NCBI RefSeq assembly: GCF_948472415.1
Contig: NZ_OX419519.1
Location: forward strand, 1 to 64,000
DNA from: Kitasatospora fiedleri
Lineage (GTDB): Bacteria; Actinomycetota; Actinomycetes; Streptomycetales; Streptomycetaceae
Length of the DNA stretch: 64,000 nucleotides
Direction of reading: 5' to 3'
Part shown: piece after piece, positions 9,158-19,732 of the stretch
How positions within the stretch are numbered: the first letter of the stretch is position 1
Layout: each line of letters starts with the position of its first letter
Notes under the pieces: model-generated
What the model saw: only the letters and a program-made list of their open reading frames with translations
What the model was told of the DNA's origin: nothing
The model's database searches: none
Program-made: the position numbers and the translations under genes

Positions 9158-11649
9158 ATGATCACCAGGTCGACCATCGGCACCGGATGGCACCTCACCC
9201 TGACCGACCCGCACCCCGACGCCCCCGCCGACCTGCGCGGGCGCACCGTGCCGGCCGCCGTCCCCGGCTGCGTGCACACCGACCTGCTCGCCGCCGGCCT
9301 GCTCGCCGACCCCTACGTCGGCCTGAACGAGGCCGGGCAGCACTGGATCGGCCGCTCCGGCTGGACCTGGACCACCTCCTTCGACCTCCCGGCCGGGGAC
9401 GCCGCCACCCGGCGGGAGCTGGTCTTCCACGGCCTGGACACGGTCGCGGAGGTCAGCGTCAACGGACACGTCGTCGGCCGCACCGCGAACATGCACCGCA
9501 CCCACGCCTTCGACGTCACCGCGCTGGTCACCCCGACCGGCAACGAGCTGCGGGTGCACATCGGTTCGGTGTACGACTACACCGACGCCCGCCGGGCCGA
9601 GTCCGGCGAACTGCCCTCCACCTACGACGAGCCGTTCAACCACGTCCGCAAGATGGCGGCCAACTTCGGCTGGGACTGGGGGCCGACCCTGGTCACCGCC
9701 GGGATCTGGAAGCCGGTCGAGCTGCTCGGCTGGAGCGGCGCGCGGCTGGAGTCCGTCCGGCCCGCCGTCACCGTCGACCGGCCCGGCCAGGACGGGCCCG
9801 CGACGGTCACCGCGCACGTCGCGGTGCGCCGGGCCCCCGACGCCCCGGACGCCGAGCTGCTGCTCACCGCGACCGTCGCCGGGCAGCGCGCCACCGGCCG
9901 GGTCCCGGCCGGGTCGGACACCGCCGAACTGACCGTCGCGGTGCCCGACGCCCGCCTGTGGTGGCCGATCGGCCTGGGCGGACAGCCGCTCTACGACCTG
10001 GAGGTCGGCCTCTCGTCCGGCGCGGGGACCGCGGACCGCTGGTCGCGCCGGATCGGCTTCCGGACCGCCGAGCTGCACACCGCGCCGGACCGGGCGGGCA
10101 CCCCGTTCGAGATCCTGGTCAACGGCGTCCACGTGCCCGTCCGGGGCGTCAACTGGATCCCCGACGACTGCTTCGTCTCCCGGCTCGGCCGCGCGGACTA
10201 CGCCGCCGCCCTCGACCACGCGGTCGAGGCCAACGTCAACCTGATGCGGGTCTGGGGCGGGGGCATCTACGAGAAGGACGAGTTCTACGACCTGTGCGAC
10301 GAGCGCGGCCTGCTGGTCTGGCAGGACTTCCTGTTCGCCTGCGCCACCTACAGCGAGGAGGAGCCGATCCGCGGCGAGGTCCTCGCCGAGGCCCGCGACA
10401 ACGTCACCCGGCTCGCCCCGCACCCCAGCCTGGTGCTGTGGAACGGCAACAACGAGAACCTGTGGGGCCACCGCGACTGGGGCTGGCCCGAGGTCCTCGG
10501 CGACCGCGGCTGGGGCCTGGCCTACTACACCGAGCTGCTGCCCGCGGTCGTGGCCGAGCTCGACCCGGGCCGCCGTACTGGCCCGGCAGCCCCTGGTCGG
10601 GCTCCGCCGACCGGCACCCCAACGACCCGCTGCACGGGCCGATCCACATCTGGGACGTCTGGAACGAGCGCGACTGGACCGCGTACGCCGAGTACCAGCC
10701 GCGTTTCGTCGCCGAGTTCGGCTTCCAGGGCCCGGCCTGCCGGCCCACCGTCCGGCGCGCGATCGACGACGGCCCGCCGGCCCCGACCGGGCCGGTCGCC
10801 GACGCCCACCAGAAGGCCAAGGACGGCGTGGCCAAGCTGCAGCGCGGCGTCCTGCCGCACCTGCCGGACCGGCGTCGGGGGGACCCGGAGCAGGAGATGT
10901 CCGACTGGATCTACCTCGCCCAGCTCAACCAGGCCCGCGCCGTCCGGTTCGGCATCGACCACCTGCGCGGCCAGTGGCCGCGCTGCTCCGGCACGATCCT
11001 GTGGCAGCTCAACGACTGCTGGCCGGTGGCCTCCTGGGCGACCGTCGACGGCGACGGCCACCGCAAGCTCGCCTGGTACGCGCTGCGCGCCGCCTACCGG
11101 CCCCGGCACGCCGCCGTGTCGCAGGCCACCGGCCGCCGCCCCTTCGTCCGGCTCACCAACAACGGCGGCGACCCGTGGCGGACCGAACTCGCCGTCCAGG
11201 TCCACACGGTGGCGGGTGAGCTGCTCTCGGAGGCCGTGCACCCCGTGGCCCTCCCCGACGGGGCGACCGCCTCCCTGCCGGTCGAGCTGACGGACCGCCA
11301 CCCGGCGGGCACGCCGCTGGTGGTGACGGTCCGCGAGGCCGGCGCGGTCCTCGACCGGGTCCTCACCGCGGAGGACGTCGCCGCCGACCTGCCCGCCGCC
11401 CGCCTGACCGTGACCACCGAGGCGGCCGCGGACGGCGTCCGGGTGCGCGTCCTGGCCCACACCCTCCTGCGCGACGTGGTGCTGAACGCGGACCGGCTCG
11501 ACGACGGCGCGACCGTCGACGAGCAGCTGGTCACCCTGCTCCCCGGGGAGGCGCACGTCTTCCACGCCCGCACCGCGGCGGCGGCCGAGGACCCCCGCTG
11601 GCAGCACCCGCTGACCGTGCGCTGCGTCAACGACCTGATCGGCGGCTGA
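9158..11649 (+). CDS. beta-mannosidase, GH2
   Basis: About 830 residues with the GH2 layout: jelly-roll N-domain (WHLTLTDPHPD..., RSGWTWTTSF), immunoglobulin-like domain, then the TIM barrel. The acid/base Glu is in WNGNNENLWG and the nucleophile Glu in VAEFGFQGP, the beta-mannosidase versions of these motifs. It hydrolyses terminal beta-mannose from manno-oligosaccharides, probably in the cytoplasm (no signal peptide). ATG at 9158 follows CAGGAG. One break near 10575, where CCC reads as CC; the barrel continues in the next frame. With the alpha-galactosidase it would allow full breakdown of galactomannan fragments. Confidence 0.9.
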
Positions 11650-11753: not shown

Positions 11754-12634
11754 TCACCGCCCTCCGCCCCCGGGGTGCCGCGGCGGGCCCGGCGGGCGGA
11801 GGGCGGCCGCCGCGGTGGCGGCGTCGGTGGTGGGGAGGCGAGGGGCGAGGTCGGCGAGTAGGCGGCGCAGCCGGGTGCGGACGGGGCCCGGGGAGGTGGC
11901 GACCGAGCCGGTGAGCACCAGTGGTTCGCCGGGGCGGGCGGTGGCGCGGACCAGGGCGGCGAGGTGGTCCGCGGCCGTGTCGGTGAGGGCGCGGGCGTCG
12001 GGGTCGCCGGTGGCGGCCAGGCGGCAGACGGGGGCGGCGAGTTCGGCGAGGCGGCGGGGCGGCCCGTCGTAGGCCCAGCGGAGCGGGTCGTCGGCGCAGT
12101 GCGCGCGGACCAGGACGCCCAGGGCGCTGCGGGGTGCGCGTGGGCGTGCCGGAGGGCCTGGCGGCCGAGCCAGAAGCCGCCGCCCTCGTCGCCGAGCAGC
12201 CAGCCGAGTCCGCCGTGCTGTGCGACGGTGCGTCCGGCGTCGAGCCGGACGCAGATCGCGCCGGTACCGGCGATCAGGACGGTGCCGGTGCCGTCGGTGA
12301 CGCCGCCGGAGGCCAGCGCGGGCACGGTGTCGGGGACCAGCCGGACGGGCACGTCCAGGCGGAGGGCCGTGCGGCAGCGGGCGGCGAGGGCCGCGGGGTC
12401 GGGCAGGGCCCGGTAGCCGGCGAGTCCGATCGTGCAGTCGGTGATCCGGCCGGGTGCCCGGTCGCCGAGGGCGGCGGCGGTGGCGGCGGCCAGCCGGGCG
12501 GTGACGGTGGCGGGGTCGGTGCCGGCGGCGTTGGCGCCGGGTGCGGTGCCGCGGCCGAGGACGGTGCCGGTCCGGTCGGTGAGGACGGCGCGGGTGTGGC
12601 TGCCGCCCGCGTCGAGCCCGAGGCGGAGCGTCAT
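11754..12634 (-). CDS. N-acetylglucosamine-kinase-type protein (BadF/BcrA ATPase family)
   Basis: ASKHA-fold kinase of about 293 residues. The phosphate-1 loop GLDAGGSHTRAVL, the adenosine-side loop LIAGTGAICVRL and GWLLGDEGGGFWLG are all visible. It probably phosphorylates GlcNAc or a close amino sugar. Its ATG overlaps the stop of MurQ by four bases (ATGA), so the two are translationally coupled; together they would feed amino sugars from wall turnover into metabolism. One break near 12140. Confidence 0.82.
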
Positions 12635-13658
12635 CCGCCGGCCCCGGCCCGGGCGGCGACGGCAGCGGGGTCGCCCTCGTCGGGGCGCCGGTAGTGAGGG
12701 CGCGGACGGCGGCGAAGGGGCGGCCCCGGTGGGCGGCGAGGGCGGCGCGGGCCCGGGCGGGGGTGGCGCCGGTGGTGAGTGCGACCAGGGCGGTGGCGGT
12801 CTCCCCCGCGCAGGTGTCGAGGCAGGCGGCGGCCTCCTCGGCGGTGACCCGGCAGGAGGTGGTCAGGGTGCGGACGGCCCGTTCGCGGAGCTTCCCGTTA
12901 CGGGCGGAGGCGGCCACCATCAGGTTCGACCAGGTCCGTCCGGTGCGGACCATCAGCGCGGTGGAGAAGGCGTTGAGGGCGAGTTTCTGGGCGGTGCCCG
13001 CTTTCATCCGGGTGGAGCCGGTGACCACCTCGGGGCCGGTGGCCAGGACGACGAGCAGGTCGGCGTGGGCGGCGCCCGACGCGTCGGGGTCGGCGGTGAG
13101 CAGCGCGGTGGCGGCCCCGGTGGCGCGGGCGGTGGCGAGGGCGCGCAGGACGTACGGGGTGCGGCCGCTCGCGGTGACGCCGATGACCAGGTCGTCGGCC
13201 CGGGGGCGGTCGGGGTCGGCCGGGTCGGGGCCGGTGTCCTCGGCGGGTTCGGCAGCCCGGCCGGCGGCGATCGGCCCGCCGGCCAGGTGGGCGACCAGGG
13301 TCTCCGGGCCGACCCCGTAGGTGGGGCCGAGTTCCAGCGCGTCGCCGAGGGCGATCCGGCCGCCGGCGCCCGCCCCGTAGTAGTGCACCCGTCCGCCGCG
13401 GTCCAGGGCCCGGACGGCGGCGTCGACCAGGTCGGCGAGCCGGGGCAGGGCGGCGCGGACGGCGGCGGCGACGGTGGCGTCCTGGTCGTTGATCAGTTCC
13501 AGCAGGGCGGGGGTGTCCAGGGTGTCGAGCCCGGTGCTCAGCGGGTGCCGGTGTTCGGTCGGGGGGAGTGGACAGCGGGTGCCGGACGGCGCGGGCTCGG
13601 ACGACGCGGGCTCGAACGGCGCGGTCTCAGACGGCGCGGTCTCAGACGGCGTAGGCAT
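12631..13658 (-). CDS. murQ: N-acetylmuramic acid 6-phosphate etherase
   Basis: SIS-domain lyase of about 342 residues that cleaves the lactyl ether of MurNAc-6-phosphate to GlcNAc-6-phosphate. Family marks: PTEHRHPLSTGLD, LLELINDQDATV, the sugar-phosphate site YYGAGAGGRIALGDALE, GVTASGRTPYV, and the strongly conserved STRMKAGTAQKLALN and SARNGKLRERA. The start at 13658 (GGAG eight bases upstream) adds a low-complexity Ser/Glu/Pro leader of about 30 residues encoded by short direct repeats; the family core begins after it. The start overlaps the stop of the upstream gene by 17 bases. A break near 12690 moves the last 20 residues to the frame that ends in the ATGA overlap. Confidence 0.9.
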
Positions 13659-14916
13659 CGAGGCTCCACAGCGAGTAGGCGTAGGCGGTGCCCCGGGTGG
13701 TGAGGTCGAGCCGCAGGTAGCGGCCGGTGCCGTGCAGGCCGGTGAGGTACTCGACGCCGCCGGTGCCGCCGGTCACGGTGCGCACGGTCGTCCAGGCGCT
13801 GCCGTCGGTGGAGAGCTGGACGCGGTAGGCGCTGCCGTAGCCGGTGTTCCACACCAGCCGGACGCCCTCGACGGTGCGGACGGCGCCGAGGTCGACGGTG
13901 AGGCTCTGCGGGTCGGCGTAGGCGCTGGCCCAGCGGGTGTACGGGCTGCCGTCGACCGCGTTGGGGCCGGTCAGGGTGGAGCTGTAGCTGCTGGAGACGG
14001 TGACCGGGCGGCCGAGGGCGAGGTCGGCGGCCGTGGCCTCGGGCCCGGCGGACCAGTCGAGGAACGCCCGGGTGGCGGGCAGCCAGCCCTGGCTGCCGGC
14101 GCCGTTCTGGCAGGCGGTGTCGCAGACGGCGGGGTTGGAGCCGCCCCAGACCACCGCGCCGGGCAGGCCGAGGTCGTGCAGGGTGGCGAGCTGGAAGGCG
14201 AACTGGGCGGCGGGCACCCAGGTGAGCGAGAGCGCGCCGGTGCCGTCGTGGTACTGCGGCCAGACGTAGGGGAGCACCGGGACCGCCGGGTCGATCTGCG
14301 CGGCGGCGGCCAGGTTGCCCTTCAGGGTGGTCAGCCAGCTGTCGTAGCCGGTGGCGTAGGTGTACGCGGAGGGGAAGAAGGCGGTGTTGCGGTCCTGGGC
14401 GATCAGCTGCCGGTACAGGCCCTGGTGGGCGGTGGCGGTGTTGCCCAGCAGGCCGTACCAGCCGATGAGTTGGGTCGGCGCGACCTGGCGGGCCCAGCTC
14501 TGGAGGGTGGCCAGCCGGTTGAGGTGGTCGGCGGCGGTCGCGGCGTCCCCGGTGAGGTAGAGGCTCTCGCAGTCGAGCACCAGCGGCGCGTCGGGGTGGG
14601 TGTCGTACTGGGCGACCAGGGACTTCCAGGTCGTCTCGGCGGGCAGCGCGCCGCCGGCCACCAGCGGGGTGCAGACGGTTGGGCACCAGGTTGGCGGGGA
14701 CGGCGCCGTGGCCGATGTCGGCGCTGGCGTAGGCGGTGTCGTCGTACAGCGTGAAGGCGGCGGAGGTGGCGGGGGCGGGCGGGGGCGGCGGGCACGGCGT
14801 GGCGCCGGGTCCGGGGCGAGCGGCAGCAGGGCGGCGGCGACGGACAACAGCAGGGTCAGGACGCGGTGCGGCGCTCTGGTCGGACGGGGCGCGCTGGTCG
14901 GGCGGGGGGCGGTCAT
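13642..14916 (-). CDS. secreted hyaluronidase-like protein with C-terminal CBM32 (F5/8 C)
   Basis: About 424 residues: signal peptide (LTLLLSVAAALLPLA), a putative glycosidase domain, then a galactose-binding-like domain (NAVDGSPYTRWAS, LTVDLGAVRTVEGVRLVW, RYLRLDLTTRG). The middle domain has VLDCESLYL, LIGWYGLLGN, FPSAYTY, LPYVWPQYHDG and GAVVWGGSN. The D-x-E and the VVWGGS strand recall GH56 hyaluronidases, but similarity is weak and I infer this only from motif order. Frame breaks near 14800 and 14675 cancel out. It lies between murQ and the RpiR regulator on one strand, which points to amino-sugar polymers as substrate. Confidence 0.6.
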   Translation of the reverse strand: MTAPRPTSAPRPTRAPHRVLTLLLSVAAALLPLAPDPAPRRARRPRPPPPPPPPSRCTTTPPTPAPTSATAPSPPTWCPTVCTPLVAGGALPAETTWKSLVAQYDTHPDAPLVLDCESLYLTGDAATAADHLNRLATLQSWARQVAPTQLIGWYGLLGNTATAHQGLYRQLIAQDRNTAFFPSAYTYATGYDSWLTTLKGNLAAAAQIDPAVPVLPYVWPQYHDGTGALSLTWVPAAQFAFQLATLHDLGLPGAVVWGGSNPAVCDTACQNGAGSQGWLPATRAFLDWSAGPEATAADLALGRPVTVSSSYSSTLTGPNAVDGSPYTRWASAYADPQSLTVDLGAVRTVEGVRLVWNTGYGSAYRVQLSTDGSAWTTVRTVTGGTGGVEYLTGLHGTGRYLRLDLTTRGTAYAYSLWSLDAYAV

Positions 14917-14954
14917 CGGCGGTCTCCATACGTACGGGGGGAGGGGGGGCGGGG

Positions 14955-15786
14955 TCAGCGGGCGCGGCGCAGGCTGTGGCGGCGGACGGCGTCGTGGGCG
15001 CGTTCCAGGCCGTCCAGGATGCGGGCGTGGTCGTGCTGGGCGAGGGTGACGTAGAGGGCGTCCACGACGGTGAGTTGGGCGGTGCGGGAGGCGGTGCCGC
15101 CGCTGCGGAAGGCGGTCTCCGAGCGGCGGTGAGCAGCACCAGGTCGGCGGCCTGGGCGGCGGGCGAGCGCGGGTTGCTGGTGACGGCGGCGGTGGCGGCC
15201 CGGGCGAGGCGGGCCTCCTCCAGCACCTCGACCACCTCGCGGGCCCGGCCGGAGTGGCTGATGCCGAGGGCGAGGTCGCCGGGTTCCAGAGGCGGCGGTC
15301 ATCAGTGCGGCGTGCACGTCGCTGGCGAACACGGCGGCGTAGCCGAGGCGTTGGAGTTTCTGGGTGGCGTCGAGGGCGGCGAGTGCGCTGGAGCCGACGC
15401 CGACCACCAGGATGCGGCGGGCTCGAGGGCGGTGGCGGTCTCCTCGGCGGCCCGGGCGTTGGCCCAGCCGACCTTGCGGACCAGTTGCTCGGGGTGTCGT
15501 CGGGGCCGAGGTCGGTGCCGAGGCCGAGGTCGGGGCGGGTGTCGGCGCGCAGCCGTTCGGCTCGGCGGCCAGGCCGAGCCGCAGTTGGGCGTAGCCGCGC
15601 AGGTCGAGGCTGCGGCAGAAGCGGTGCACGGTGGTCTCGGAGGTGCCGGCGGCGCGGGCGAGTTCGGTGATGGTGCGGGTGGCGGCGGCGCCGGGGTCGG
15701 CGAGGACCAGGTCGGCGATGCCCCGTTCGGCCTTGGGGAGCAGGTCGCGGTGGTGGCGAATCCGGGCGAGCAGGTCATCGGGGCAC
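14955..15786 (-). CDS. RpiR/MurR-family transcriptional regulator
   Basis: N-terminal RpiR helix-turn-helix (LLPKAERGIADLVLADP, TSETTVHRFCRSLDL, GYAQLRLGLA) and C-terminal SIS sugar-phosphate domain (LVVGVGSSALAALDATQKL, DVHAALM, LTVVDALYVTLAQ). Such regulators next to murQ usually sense MurNAc-6P or GlcNAc-6P. No start codon is in frame with the HTH; GTG at 15786 with AGGAAGG upstream is the likely start if one base is missing just after it. Further breaks occur near 15520, 15430, 15290 and 15125. It overlaps the stop of the upstream gene, so it is co-transcribed. Confidence 0.78.
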
Positions 15787-16794
15787 GGGTCGGTCCTTCC
15801 TGGGGTGGTGCGGCGGGGCGGTGCGGGCCAGCCGGTCGGCGAGGACGTTCCAGCGGTCGGGGCCGAGGCCCTCGCCGGGGAACAGGCAGATGCTGCCCGA
15901 TCCGGCGGCCAGGGTGTGGTCGAGCAGGGCCGTGAAGTCGGCGGTGTCGATCGGCGGCCCCCAGTCGGCGGGGCGGCCGAGGACGGCGGCGGCGTCGGCG
16001 GTGGTCTGTACGACGGGCACCAGCGGGACGGGGAGGGCGCGGCCGCGCAGCAGCCGGGCGGGCCAGCGCGGGTCGCGGTGCAGGATGGCGTGGTAGGCCA
16101 TCGGGAGCAGCAGGTCGAGCACCCGGGCGAGTTCGCGGGCGTCCTGGCCGACCAGGGCGCGGCGTTCGGTCTCGTCGGCGGCGGGGACCAGGAAGGCGCC
16201 GACGGGCAGGCCGGGGCGGGTGGTGCGGGCCGCGGCGGCGAGCAGGCGGGCGGCGCCGGTGACGGCGGCGGTGCGGAACTCCGTCCAGGCGTCGGCGTGG
16301 TGCGCGGCGATCCAGCGGGCCGCGGCGGCGCCGGGGCCGGGCGGGCGCAGGCCGGTGCGCGCGGTGAACTGCCGCAGTGTGTCGGGGTCGTAGGAGGCGG
16401 AGCGGGGCCGGGCTCCGGGGCGCAGTTCGAGCTCCCAGTGCAGCGGCCAGCGCAGGAAGTCCAGCAGCAGGCCGTCGACGGGGGCGGTGCGCAGGGCGGT
16501 GGTGAGCCGTTCGGCCAGGCGGGCGGTTTCCAGTCGGGGTCGTTGGGGCGTACGCCGGTGTACCACTCCATCGGCTGCCAGGGGCCGCGTCCTGGTCGAC
16601 GCGGGGCCGTCGGGGCCGCGGAAGCAGGCGAAGCTGCCGTGCAGGCGCAGGCCGCGGCAGTGGGCCAGGTCGGGCCAGGCCGGGGGTGACCGCTTCGAGT
16701 TTGGTGACGACGGTGTCCAGTCCGGCCGCGGCGGCCCGGTCGAGCAGACGGGGCAGCCGCGGCGAGCCGGGGTCGAGGAGTAGCAGGAGCGCAC
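15775..16794 (-). CDS. glycoside-hydrolase-like protein of unknown specificity
   Basis: About 340 residues, soluble, no clear signal peptide. In order I can read LLLLDPGSPRLPRLLDRA, LDTVVTKLEAVTPG, GLRLHGSFACFRGPDG, EWYTGVRPNDPDW, VDGLLLDFLRWPLHWELE, LPVGAFLVPAADETERR and GSGSICLFPGEGLGPDRW. The DFLRWP strand followed by a late small-residue strand is what GH-like TIM barrels (DUF187/GHL type, IDYIRYP motif) show, but no family is certain. Breaks near 16690, 16610 and 16540 disturb the N-terminal third. It is first in the murQ operon and its promoter region holds the paired repeats described at 16821-16941. Start codon at 16794 is tentative. Confidence 0.55.
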   Translation of the reverse strand: MRSCYSSTPARRGCPVCSTGPPRPDWTPSSPNSKRSPPAWPDLAHCRGLRLHGSFACFRGPDGPASTRTRPLAADGVVHRRTPQRPRLETARLAERLTTALRTAPVDGLLLDFLRWPLHWELELRPGARPRSASYDPDTLRQFTARTGLRPPGPGAAAARWIAAHHADAWTEFRTAAVTGAARLLAAAARTTRPGLPVGAFLVPAADETERRALVGQDARELARVLDLLLPMAYHAILHRDPRWPARLLRGRALPVPLVPVVQTTADAAAVLGRPADWGPPIDTADFTALLDHTLAAGSGSICLFPGEGLGPDRWNVLADRLARTAPPHHPRKDRPVPR

Positions 16795-16820: not shown

Positions 16821-16941
16821 GAAAGTCGTAAATAACTTTCGCACCGATCAGAGGTTCGCAGTTCATCACGTAGTGTGGCGCAACACAGTGAAACATTTCC
16901 GCAATTCCGGCGGTGAAATCGAAAGATATTTACGAGATTTC
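16821..16941. promoter_or_regulatory. divergent promoter region with paired inverted repeats
   Basis: This is the most AT-rich stretch of the window. TCGTAAATAACTTTCG (16826-16841) and CGAAAGATATTTACGA (16920-16935) are inverted copies matching at 15 of 16 positions. Each is itself framed by a smaller palindrome: GAAAGT/ACTTTC (16821-16826/16835-16840) and GAAATC/GATTTC (16915-16920/16936-16941). It lies between the murQ operon and the divergent ABC transporter; the RpiR protein of the cluster is the natural candidate to bind. Confidence 0.55.
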
Positions 16942-17016: not shown

Positions 17017-18084
17017 ATGCCCACGCACCGGCCGCCCGTCCGTCTCGCCCGTCCGGCTCGTCCGGCTCGTCCGCCCTCGCCCTCGCGCCGCCCTGCTGGT
17101 CGCCGCCGCCTCTCACCGGCTGCGCCCCGACCGCGGGAAGGCCGCCCCGGCCGGGCCGTCACCGCGCCGCTGCCCACCGCCGTACCGGCCGGCGTCACGC
17201 TGCGGATCGCCGACCAGAACGACCTGCTGAAGACCACGCTGGCCGCCGCCGGACAGGACAAGGACCTTCCGTACCAGGTCAGTTGGTCCTCCTTCAGGGC
17301 GGCCCGGCGGTGCTGGAGGCGTTCCGGGCCGGGGCCGCGCGACGTCGGCTTCGTCTCCGACGCGCCGGTGTCTTCGCCCAGGCGCACGGCCAGGACGCCC
17401 GGGTGGTCGGCGTGGTGCAGAACAGCCCGGACGCCGTCCACCTGTGGACCTCGCCGGCAGCACGGCCGGGACGGTGGCCGACCTGAAGGGGAAGAAGATC
17501 GCCTACACCGAGGGCACCACCTTCCAGCCGCCGTCCTGACCGCGTTGAAGAACGCCGGGCTGAAGCCCTCCGACGTCACCCTGGTCAAGCTCAACCCGCC
17601 GGAGATCCCGGCCCGGCTGGCCGCCGGGCAGGTCGACGCGGGCACCCTGACCGAGCCGCTGGTCAGCAAGTACAGCACCGGCTACCAGGACAAGGGCGCC
17701 CACGAGCTCGCCGACGACAAGGCGCTCACCAGCGGCCTGCAACTGCTCATCGCCCCGGGCGCCGTCGTCGCGGACGACGCCCGCAGCGCCGCCCTGGCCG
17801 ACCTGGCGGCCCGGTTCACCCGCGCCGAGCTGTGGATCACCGCCCACAAGGACGCCTGGGTGCAGTCCTACTACGTGGACTCCCAGAAGCTGCCCGCCGA
17901 GGTCGGCCGGGCCGTGGTCGCCAACAACGGGACGGCCACCATCCCCGACTACACCACCGCCGCCGCCCGGCTGCAGCGGATCACCGACGTGCTGGCGGAG
18001 TCGGGTGCGATCGGGGCGCTCGACGTCTCCACCGCCTTCGACCGCCGCTTCGACGCCGTCCAGGCCGCCGCGGCCAAGGGCTGA
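17017..18084 (+). CDS. ABC transporter substrate-binding lipoprotein, SsuA/NMT1 type
   Basis: Periplasmic-binding-type lipoprotein of about 356 residues. A lipobox LTGC can be read near residue 30 after frame repair. Then TLRIADQNDLLKTTLAAAG, a QGGPAVLEAF segment, DVGFVSDAPV, DLKGKKIAYTEGTT and PPEIPARLAAGQVDAGTL, the usual aliphatic sulfonate/nitrate/taurine group pattern. ATG at 17017 has GGGAG upstream. Breaks near 17105, 17295, 17345, 17375, 17455 and 17535 are concentrated in the first half. It starts a three-gene transporter operon. The true ligand is unknown; the neighbouring amino-sugar genes would fit something else than a sulfonate. Confidence 0.8.
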   Translation: MPTHRPPVRLARPARPARPPSPSRRPAGRRRLSPAAPRPREGRPGRAVTAPLPTAVPAGVTLRIADQNDLLKTTLAAAGQDKDLPYQVSWSSFRAARRCWRRSGPGPRDVGFVSDAPVSSPRRTARTPGWSAWCRTARTPSTCGPRRQHGRDGGRPEGEEDRLHRGHHLPAAVLTALKNAGLKPSDVTLVKLNPPEIPARLAAGQVDAGTLTEPLVSKYSTGYQDKGAHELADDKALTSGLQLLIAPGAVVADDARSAALADLAARFTRAELWITAHKDAWVQSYYVDSQKLPAEVGRAVVANNGTATIPDYTTAAARLQRITDVLAESGAIGALDVSTAFDRRFDAVQAAAAKG

Positions 18085-18087
18085 GCG

Positions 18088-18911
18088 ATGACGACGCGCC
18101 ACCACCGGGGCGCCCGCCGCCGCCGGCGCCGCTCCGCCCGGCCACCCGGCCGGGCGGCCGCCGACGGGTCCGTTCTCCCGCGCGCTCGGCCCGCTGCTGC
18201 TGCTCGCCCCTGGCAGACCTGCTCCGCCACCGGCGTCCTGGACCCGCAGACCCTCGCCCCGCCGGGGCGGTCGCCCGGCAGGGCTGGGACCTGCTCGGCG
18301 ACGGGCAGCTCGGCCACCACCTGTGGGTGTCGCTCCAACGCGCCGCCCTCGGGCTGGCCTTCGGCGGTGCCGCGGCCGTGCTGCTGGCACTGCTGGCCGG
18401 GCTCTCCCGGCTCGGCGAGGCCCTGATCGACGGGACGGCGCAGCTGTTCGGGCGCTGCCGATCCTCGCCCTCGTCCCGCTGGCCATCCTGTGGTTCGGCA
18501 TCGGCGAGGAGGTGAAGATCATCCTGGTGGCGCTCGGCACCTTCTTCCCGATCTACGTCAACACCCACGCCGCCCTCACCGGCCTGGACCTGCGCTGGGC
18601 CGAACTCGCCCGCACCGTCGGCCTGAACCGCCGCCAGTTCCTGCGCCGGATCGCCCTGCCGGGTGCCGCGCCGGGCTTCTTCACCGGCCTGCGGCTGGCC
18701 GTCACCGTCTCCTGGCTGGTGCTGGTGGTCAGTGAGCAGATCAACGCCAACAGCGGCATCGGCTACCTGATGGAACAGGCCCGCACCTTCGGCCAGACCG
18801 ACGTCATCGTGGTCGGCCTGGTGGTCTACGGCCTGCTGGGCCTGGCCTCCCGACACCCTGGTACGACTCCTGGAGAGGCGGGCCCTGCGATGGCGCACGA
18901 CACTCGGCTGA
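18088..18911 (+). CDS. ABC transporter permease, SsuC type
   Basis: Integral membrane permease of about 274 residues. Hydrophobic segments are visible around [35 protein letters not shown] and [15 protein letters not shown]. The EAA-like loop [23 protein letters not shown] is typical of the nitrate/sulfonate permeases, followed by [17 protein letters not shown]. It starts three bases after the binding protein and overlaps the ATPase gene by 22 bases. Breaks near 18215, 18265, 18455 and 18855. Confidence 0.8.
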
Positions 18912-19732
18912 CCGACCCGGCCCCGGTTCCGGGCCCGGCCACGACTCCGGTCCGGCCACGACTCCGGCCGGTGGCGGGTGCGGCTGCGCGGCCTGCGCCG
19001 CGCCTTCGACGGCGCACCGTCCTGGACGGCGTCGACCTGGACGTCGCCAAGGGCGAGTTCACCGCGCCTGCTGGGCCACTCCGGCTCCGGCAAGTCCACC
19101 CTGCTGCGGGCCGCCGGCCGCCTCGACGGCGGGGGCGAGGGCCTGGTCGAGGTGCCCGAGCCCAGCGCGGTGGTCTTCCAGGACGCCCGGCTGCTGCCCT
19201 GGAGCCGGGTGCTGGAGAACGTGGTGCTCGGCCTGCCCGGGCCCCGCTCCGCCGCGCTCGCCCGCGGCCGGGCCGCGCTCGCCGAGGTCGGCCTGGCCGG
19301 CCGGGAGCGGGCCTGGCCCGGCACCTCTCCGGCGGCGAGGCACAGCGCGCGGCACTCGCCCGGGCCTTGGTGCGGGAACCGGAACTCCTGCTGCTGGACG
19401 AGCCGTTCGGCGCCCTGGACGCCCTCACCCGAATCCGGATGCACGCCCTGCTGCGCGACCTGTGCGCCCGGCACCGCCCCGCCGTCCTGCTGGTCACCCA
19501 CGACGTGGACGAGGCCCTGCTGCTCGCCGACCGGGTCCTGGTGCTCGCCGACGGCCGCTTCTGCCTCGACCTGCCCCTGCCCGGCCCGGCCGGACCGGAC
19601 CGCCGCCGGGACCCGGCCTTCCCCGCCCACCGGGAGCGCCTGCTGCGGGCCCTCGGCGTCCCGGAGTCGGACCCGGGGGCGGAACCGGGGACGGATGCCC
19701 CTGACCGGCGGCCTCGACCGTTCGGCAGGTGA
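18890..19732 (+). CDS. ABC transporter ATP-binding protein, SsuB type
   Basis: ATPase of about 280 residues energising the transporter. Walker [11 protein letters not shown]-loop [11 protein letters not shown] (characteristic of the NrtD/SsuB/TauB branch), signature [15 protein letters not shown], Walker [13 protein letters not shown] and switch [12 protein letters not shown] are all present. Breaks near 18975, 19010, 19068 and 19322. It closes the operon, ending convergent to a GNAT gene 71 bases away. Confidence 0.85.

Follow-up and report, generated by a model that had tools for sequence, protein, structure and literature searches.

A candidate MurNAc-scavenging module of Kitasatospora with a secreted GH56-like enzyme encoded beside a MurQ-like etherase

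INTRODUCTION

A worked-out route for salvaging N-acetylmuramic acid (MurNAc) together with N-acetylglucosamine (GlcNAc) is that of Staphylococcus aureus. In the account of PMC6262408, MurNAc-GlcNAc is set free by Atl, an autolysin and secreted glucosaminidase; MurP takes up the disaccharide and phosphorylates it, the resulting MurNAc-6-phosphate-GlcNAc is split by MupG, and MurQ finishes the pathway. For Streptomyces coelicolor, PMC5061867 describes MurQ (SCO4307) and an RpiR-type gene as a MurNAc recycling cluster used for the organism's own wall, and PMC13041923 shows that new muramic acid routes continue to turn up in actinobacteria. Streptomycetaceae also have NagS, a MurQ-related GlcNAc-6-phosphate dehydratase whose orthologues are described as at least 58.7% identical and next to dmdR1 (PMC12680351). 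Here we analyse a locus of Kitasatospora fiedleri in which a MurQ-like gene shares an operon with the gene for a secreted protein resembling GH56 hyaluronidases; it lies in the first 64,000 nucleotides of contig NZ_OX419519.1 (assembly GCF_948472415.1), a stretch called the window below.

Two hyaluronidase reviews tie GH56 to animals and venoms (PMC11669647, PMC12254123), with statements that the enzymes leave GlcNAc at the reducing end (PMC11669647) and that catalysis is substrate-assisted and retaining (PMC12254123). PMC5352709 mentions GH56 solely as one of the genes that the organism under discussion lacks. Among the matches listed in a search of open-licence literature, judged by title and start of abstract, no paper linked GH56 with MurQ, peptidoglycan scavenging or Kitasatospora.

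RESULTS

A conserved block with its own operator pair

We read the locus, with a probability of about one half, as a locally regulated MurNAc-scavenging module whose secreted GH56-like enzyme would cut peptidoglycan. Five minus-strand genes face a divergent transporter across intergenic DNA that carries a pair of operator-like sites. All five genes are present where the initial annotation had placed them; it had missed that the transporter (about 17017-19702, plus strand) and the operator-like pair are part of the same conserved block. The features, in window coordinates and with the operon in its order of transcription, are as follows.

15775-16783, minus: glycoside hydrolase (GH)-like protein ('DFLRWP'); frame broken, probable GTG start near 16783, no signal peptide seen
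14955-15785, minus: RpiR/MurR-type regulator (HTH_6 and SIS); frame broken, span by tblastn
13642-14901, minus: secreted GH56-like barrel with D-x-E and a C-terminal CBM32-type domain; frame change near 14675
12690-13658, minus: MurQ-like etherase (match to NCBIfam PRK05441; tree)
11780-12634, minus: sugar kinase of BadF/BadG type, in the NagK/MurK superfamily; frame break around 12122-12149
16826-16840, minus: operator-like site GAAAGTTATTTACGA, conserved in genomes G022 and G036
16921-16935, plus: GAAAGATATTTACGA, the inverted partner of that site, likewise conserved in both genomes
17017-18084, plus: SsuA/NMT1-like lipoprotein, substrate-binding protein of the divergent ATP-binding cassette (ABC) transporter; frame broken
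18088-18911, plus: SsuC-like permease; frame broken, placed by tblastn with the intact G022 copy
18978-19702, plus: SsuB-like ATPase; in two frames, placed by tblastn with the intact G022 copy (75 and 83% identity)

Comparison with intact homologues by tblastn shows broken frames in the GH-like, barrel, kinase, SsuA-, SsuC- and SsuB-like genes; the intact G022 GH-like protein, for example, matches the window in two pieces in different frames (16780-16673 and 16683-15820). These breaks look like assembly indels. Because the window proteins are broken, classification used the intact copies of two other Kitasatospora genomes, G022 (locus L006) and G036, which is K. phosalacinea NBRC 14627 (L007/L012). 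A search for the five-gene order in other genomes, proposed with the initial annotation, finds it intact in both. In G022 neighbouring genes share 11, 17 and 4 bases at three of the four junctions, and at the remaining one a gap of about 44 bases separates them. The divergent SsuA, SsuC and SsuB genes are present in both as well.

The operator-like sequence GAAAGTTATTTACGA occurs as an inverted pair in the intergenic DNA of the window genome, G022 and K. phosalacinea. At up to two mismatches the whole 8.07 Mb genome (the window is the start of its 7.9 Mb contig) has two matches, both being this pair, while the reversed pattern gave no match in the genome and shuffles of the window gave none. 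Since the pair lies between operon and transporter, both are probably under a single regulator, for which the operon's own RpiR protein is the simplest candidate. That protein has the expected domains (HTH_6 at 59.8 bits in the window; HTH_6 at 60.7 bits, cut-off 28.3, and SIS at 86.2 bits, cut-off 25, in G022), and against the MurR equivalog model PRK15482 the window copy, taken from a frame-broken and fused open reading frame (ORF), scored 40.9 bits, below the cut-off of 408.

The secreted enzyme has a predicted GH56-type fold

Modelled from six sequences, the K. phosalacinea domain reached a predicted local distance difference test score (pLDDT) of 75.3 and a predicted template modelling score of 0.77. 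The model's top four Foldseek matches are GH56 hyaluronidases of bee and wasp (E 5.6e-7 to 8.4e-6), and its top five VIA matches are all GH56 (Z 16.6 to 14.4), GH164 following at 14.2; the best, 1fcq, has Z 16.6 and a root mean square deviation of 3.2 over 225 aligned residues. The six-sequence profile finds the bee hyaluronidase 1fcq at E 6e-6. By this model the secreted barrel has a GH56-type fold, in agreement with the hyaluronidase-like barrel that had been proposed from the window alone. The sequence marks named at that time, 'DFLRWP' in the GH-like protein and the D-x-E, 'VVWGGS' and CBM32-type domain of the secreted protein, are likewise present.

The D-x-E, which reads LDCE in the window, is invariant in all 16 aligned rows and is kept in the Burkholderia arboris row too. 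It is a candidate for the GH56 catalytic pair; querying the solved structures with the Chitinophaga sequence, in order to reach the D-x-E in the bee enzyme, returned nothing useful. The CBM32-type domain of the window matches F5_F8_type_C at 75 bits (cut-off 28.2), and its nearest solved structures are those of a glucanase/chitosanase (E 1.4e-22).

Relatives of the barrel occur in K. phosalacinea, Streptomyces albospinus, a planctomycete, Chitinophaga niastensis, a Sphingobacteriia metagenome-assembled genome and B. arboris, and in 10 of 323 genomes of a further genus of Streptomycetaceae, taken as Streptomyces since one of the ten (G683) carries the S. albospinus locus; nine of the members from these genomes have no Pfam match at E 0.01. 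The plasmids searched gave a single record with a relative and the phages searched gave none. Weak matches from phylum scans (G132, G246 and G351) are not counted as members of the barrel family or of the GH-like family. The GH56-like proteins of S. albospinus (L013:9485-10951) and of G802 (L066:5682-6989) end in an LAxTG-like motif, a hydrophobic stretch and a basic tail, as if anchored to the cell wall by sortase. In the Sphingobacteriia genome (L016:15-20471) the GH56-like domain is N-terminal in a protein of 1432 amino acids, with ORFs around it that by eye resemble SusC/SusD, sulfatase and GH35. Secreted proteins of 955 and 940 amino acids, alike in their starts and lacking any Pfam match, are encoded near GH56-like genes in two Streptomyces (L071:2750-5617 and L075:2623-5445).

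GH56-like genes adjoin MurQ in one clade spanning two phyla

In a tree of 17 barrels the Kitasatospora trio and B. arboris form one clade (100/100), apart from the S. albospinus-type, the Bacteroidota/planctomycete and the other Streptomyces clades. By tblastn, MurQ lies beside the GH56-like gene in all four loci of this clade and in none of 16 distinct other loci of the family, covered as 17 stretches of 9-21 kb (L013 and L065 are one locus), where a more distant MurQ would be missed. Loci L069 and L076 contribute to this count but to neither the alignment nor the tree of the GH56-like proteins. A gene fragment at the edge of a contig (L019/L027, genome G023) was omitted from the tree and is among the 16, though cut short. 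The GH56-like/MurQ linkage is thus specific to one clade and found in two phyla.

The B. arboris locus, on pla_2 (NZ_CP101526.1), has an M24 peptidase, a GntR regulator and MurQ on one strand and a phosphotransferase system (PTS) IIBC protein, a porin and the GH56-like gene on the other. Its MurQ scores 340.4 bits against the equivalog model TIGR00274 and clears the cut-off of 302. For the PTS protein, the MurNAc PTS IIBC model is the best match, at 295 bits and so below that model's cut-off of 516. Because transporter and regulator differ between B. arboris and Kitasatospora, what the two share is the GH56-like enzyme with MurQ.

Distribution in the genus and a variant with other hydrolases

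Four of 70 Kitasatospora genomes match the barrel profile, with three full genes and the fragment already mentioned; the SsuA gene is likewise in 4 of 70, all of them with this module or its variant, and the GH-like protein is in three of 100 genomes searched (the window's own, G022 and K. phosalacinea). In G493, listed as the same species as the window, neither the barrel nor the SsuA gene was found. So sporadic an occurrence fits what is expected of an accessory island.

The variant block, in G498, has SsuA-C-B, a GH84 with CBM32 and a GH43-like protein with CBM32 on one side and RpiR, MurQ and the kinase on the divergent side, with two operator-like sites at 3 and 4 mismatches. The GH84 matches PF07555 at 251.8 bits, the GH43-like protein scores 29.4 bits, below its cut-off of 32.2, and the CBM32 domains share 52-54% identity with the one in G022; tblastn found neither the GH56-like barrel nor the GH-like protein in this stretch. 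As G498 keeps transporter, regulator, MurQ and kinase with other hydrolases, those four appear to be the core of the module and the secreted enzymes exchangeable. GH84 being of the GlcNAc-releasing type, its presence is compatible with the same diet. G498 has two SsuA copies, with the SsuA-RpiR part near-identical and in opposite orientation (L052, G498:C1:926000-942000, and G498:C1:6868232); the comparison covers about 4 kb of the second copy, and the two perhaps lie in terminal repeats of a linear chromosome.

The MurQ-like protein and other MurQs

The window MurQ matches NCBIfam PRK05441 at 307.3 bits (cut-off 168). In a tree of 13 MurQ rows the four copies from Kitasatospora group together with 100/100 support, their common stem measuring 0.97, and in the alignment they keep both Glu columns, which we take to be the catalytic positions. 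At E 1e-85 none of 333 Streptomyces genomes matches this clade, a count made without a positive control and so uninformative alone.

Two more MurQ genes lie elsewhere in the window genome, at 5.94 and 6.82 Mb. The former (G000:C1:5941188-5942087, L034) is next to an RpiR relative (47% to that of G022) and, by eye, peptide-type ABC genes and a GH3 (NagZ-like) ORF; this is likely a general recycling cluster. An RpiR gene adjoins MurQ in six of seven loci with the nearest actinobacterial MurQs outside the genus. Beside one such RpiR-MurQ-ABC cluster of another actinobacterium (L045:3616-3858) an ORF start reads, by eye, like the exo-muramidase NamZ.

Transporter, kinase and GH-like protein

The SsuA-like protein of G022 matches NMT1 (46.7 bits, cut-off 20.5), the frame-broken window copy falls short of TIGR01728 (52.9 bits, cut-off 163.5), and the intact SsuC-like protein matches BPD_transp_1 at 99.3 bits. 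The kinase matches BcrAD_BadFG at 50.8 bits in the window and 61.6 bits in G022 (cut-off 31.5); the closest solved relatives of the intact copy include hexokinase, the MurNAc/GlcNAc kinase 8zo3 (E 1.8e-11) and human NAGK. PMC10465942 ties acceptance of MurNAc to small residues near the lactyl group.

The intact Kitasatospora copies of the GH-like protein have no relevant Pfam match, no PDB match and no match to DUF871 (MupG, GH170) at E up to 5. A mixed profile of this protein with two distant sequences reaches the GH153 domain of PgaB (E 1.3e-4), and the distant relatives alone match DUF4015/GHL10. The protein is probably a TIM-barrel glycosidase without a clear family assignment and, lacking a visible signal peptide, probably cytoplasmic. 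A structure model from a two-sequence alignment was too poor (pLDDT 42.3), and no fold search was based on it.

Next to the operon, at 9187-11649, lies a frame-broken GH2 beta-mannosidase-like gene (Ig_mannosidase at 18 bits, below cut-off); a beta-mannosidase-like ORF was also seen by eye near the planctomycete GH56-like gene (L014).

DISCUSSION

A possible route for wall-derived MurNAc

In the route that we envisage, the secreted GH56-like enzyme, held to its substrate by the CBM32-type domain, would act as an endo-N-acetylglucosaminidase and cut peptidoglycan at the GlcNAc-beta-1,4-MurNAc bond by acetamido-assisted GH56 chemistry, acting on the cell's own turnover products or on the walls of other bacteria. 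This bond would correspond to the GlcNAc-beta-1,4-glucuronic acid bond of hyaluronan, both having a carboxylate-bearing sugar on the leaving side. Made on peptidoglycan, the cut of the GH56 hyaluronidases, after which GlcNAc stands at the reducing end, would give MurNAc-GlcNAc. This disaccharide, or MurNAc, would then be taken up, in Kitasatospora perhaps by the SsuABC-like transporter and in Burkholderia by the MurP-like PTS; the BadF-type kinase would make the 6-phosphate, the cytoplasmic GH-like protein might split the disaccharide in a MupG-like role, and the MurQ-like enzyme would remove the lactyl ether. Binding of a phosphosugar is the signal on which we suppose the RpiR regulator to release the operator pair.

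Several points weigh against this reading. The barrels of the window, G022 and K. phosalacinea score 14.2, 14.6 and 15.3 bits against Glyco_hydro_56 (PF01630), below its cut-off of 23.2, and are for that reason called GH56-like here and not filed as GH56 members; their relatives in B. arboris (31.0 bits) and the planctomycete (26.5 bits) are above it. The branch of B. arboris is long, and is among several that drew a warning from the tool, which makes its place in the tree less sure, and its locus has no match for the GH-like protein, nor for the RpiR regulator or the kinase. Other polysaccharide clusters contain sister GH56-like genes: the one in L073 is near a PL8 lyase, the one in L070 near GH29 and GH16, and the one in L072 near GH16. 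SsuABC-like transporters are, to our knowledge, not known as sugar carriers. The window MurQ reaches 242 bits against TIGR00274, short of the cut-off of 302, so we write 'MurQ-like' and do not assert the equivalog function. All four Kitasatospora copies lack two motif residues, Ser in GTSGR and Asp in NLMVD; among the nine other rows seven have the Ser and eight the Asp, and none lacks both. Because each is lost singly elsewhere, neither loss is treated as proof of a changed substrate, and yet together with the TIGR00274 shortfall they mean that the substrate of the Kitasatospora MurQ may differ.

Part of this evidence would suit a hyaluronidase- or chondroitinase-type hydrolase acting on a glycosaminoglycan-like polymer, with kinase, MurQ-like protein and regulator handling the GlcNAc set free, or else some amino sugar that is 3-O-substituted but distinct from MurNAc. 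The nearest fold and sequences are those of GH56 hyaluronidases, the sister genes have PL8, GH29 and GH16 for neighbours, the Sphingobacteriia member sits in a SusC/D-type region with a sulfatase-like ORF (by eye), and the active-site motifs of MurQ have diverged. Against that stand a clade-mate in B. arboris with a canonical MurQ and a MurNAc-type PTS, which lowers hyaluronan as sole substrate, the restriction of MurQ linkage to the Kitasatospora-B. arboris clade, and an operon with no visible uronate-handling gene; we consider this explanation unlikely, though worth keeping in view. It is because the same GH56 subclade adjoins canonical MurQ and a MurP-like PTS in Burkholderia that we favour MurNAc over hyaluronan. 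The initial annotation had named both foreign cell wall and a hyaluronan-like glycan as possible polymers, and the same Burkholderia locus strengthens the former and lowers the latter, which keeps the neighbourhoods of the sister genes in its favour.

The main alternative for the MurQ-like protein itself is that it has become a GlcNAc-6-phosphate-processing SIS enzyme like NagS of Streptomyces, in a module that catabolises a GlcNAc polymer without MurNAc. NagS is a MurQ-related enzyme of the same family Streptomycetaceae (PMC12680351), the Kitasatospora copies have lost two motif residues and sit on a long stem, and a beta-N-acetylglucosaminidase, GH84, stands in place of GH56 in G498. The window copy nevertheless scores 307 bits to the MurQ subfamily model and is 38% identical to canonical MurQ, it keeps both Glu positions presumed catalytic, and the motif residues are also lost singly in other MurQs; the identity and the dmdR1 neighbourhood described for NagS orthologues (PMC12680351) are a further point on that side. 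A NagS identity is the less likely one, and a module built on it seems to us distinctly improbable. We give least credence to a cluster that only recycles the cell's own wall fragments, with the secreted enzyme as an accessory autolysin that neither scavenges nor degrades a polymer. RpiR does lie beside MurQ in six of the seven actinobacterial relatives fetched, and the S. coelicolor MurQ serves its own wall in the account of PMC5061867. But the window genome has two further MurQ genes, one of them near the NagZ-like GH3 ORF and peptide-type ABC genes (by eye), and the module is sporadic, with a full GH56-like gene in 3 of 70 genomes of the genus and its MurQ clade in 0 of 333 Streptomyces.

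What the module would mean

The analysis suggests a module for MurNAc salvage whose hydrolases belong to a superfamily that one would not expect there, among them a hitherto undescribed type of enzyme that cuts cell walls. The salvage of a GlcNAc- or MurNAc-containing polymer by unusual enzymes, proposed from the window alone, has gained from the conserved gene order, the operator pair and the GH56-like barrel, all of it genomic evidence. Nor did either protein fall into a family with a known unrelated substrate: the barrel is related to a known family, GH56, and within what was searched no assigned substrate was found for its subclade or for the GH-like protein. A wider proposal, advanced tentatively and doubtful as a whole, takes the Kitasatospora-Burkholderia clade for a new family of peptidoglycan hydrolases, endo-N-acetylglucosaminidases of GH56 fold that are dedicated to MurNAc scavenging. 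Cell-wall cutting would then be a candidate for the original activity of the ancestor that they share with the animal hyaluronidases, and the GH-like protein would be a second new family with a MupG-like role, feeding Kitasatospora MurQs that form a subfamily with a remodelled active site. If the reading as a MurNAc module is right, a fold so far tied to animal and venom hyaluronidases would be added to those with which bacteria act on the walls of their own cells or of one another, and the origin of GH56 would gain a concrete starting point. The module would be self-contained and separately regulated, with an activity that can be assayed for each protein, and Kitasatospora and Burkholderia, sharing only the GH56-like enzyme and MurQ, offer two test systems.

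Comparison with known systems

The GH56 hyaluronidases (bee venom 1fcq, wasp 2atm, human Hyal1/PH20) have the fold predicted for the barrel, match it with high scores and have alignable motifs (GWYG with GYY, FFPSAYTY with LLPSVYL, VLPYVWPQYHD with VLPYYWYKYQD, VVWGGS with IIWGSS); in contrast to them the Kitasatospora barrel is bacterial, linked to a CBM32 and encoded in a MurQ operon, and is 11-19% identical to them in structure alignments. The C-terminal domain of PgaB (GH153) and the DUF4015/GHL10 barrels are candidate relatives of the GH-like protein by way of the mixed profile and the distant sequences, whereas the Kitasatospora proteins alone match none of them. The B. arboris locus has a GH56-like gene of the same clade next to MurQ, but a PTS, a porin, GntR and an M24 peptidase around them. 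The actinobacterial murR-murQ clusters (SCO4308-SCO4307; L039 and L041-L045) share with the module an RpiR gene next to MurQ; by eye, they have solute-binding proteins of CUT1 or peptide type and an AnmK-like or NamZ-like ORF nearby, and no GH56-like gene was seen in them.

The closest worked-out parallel is the Atl-MurP-MupG-MurQ route of S. aureus as outlined in PMC6262408. The hydrolases of Kitasatospora come from other families, and an ABC transporter with a kinase replaces the PTS; by analogy, however, the Kitasatospora block fits this route with a candidate part for each step, having a secreted glycosidase, an importer, a candidate cytoplasmic glycosidase, MurQ and an RpiR-type regulator.

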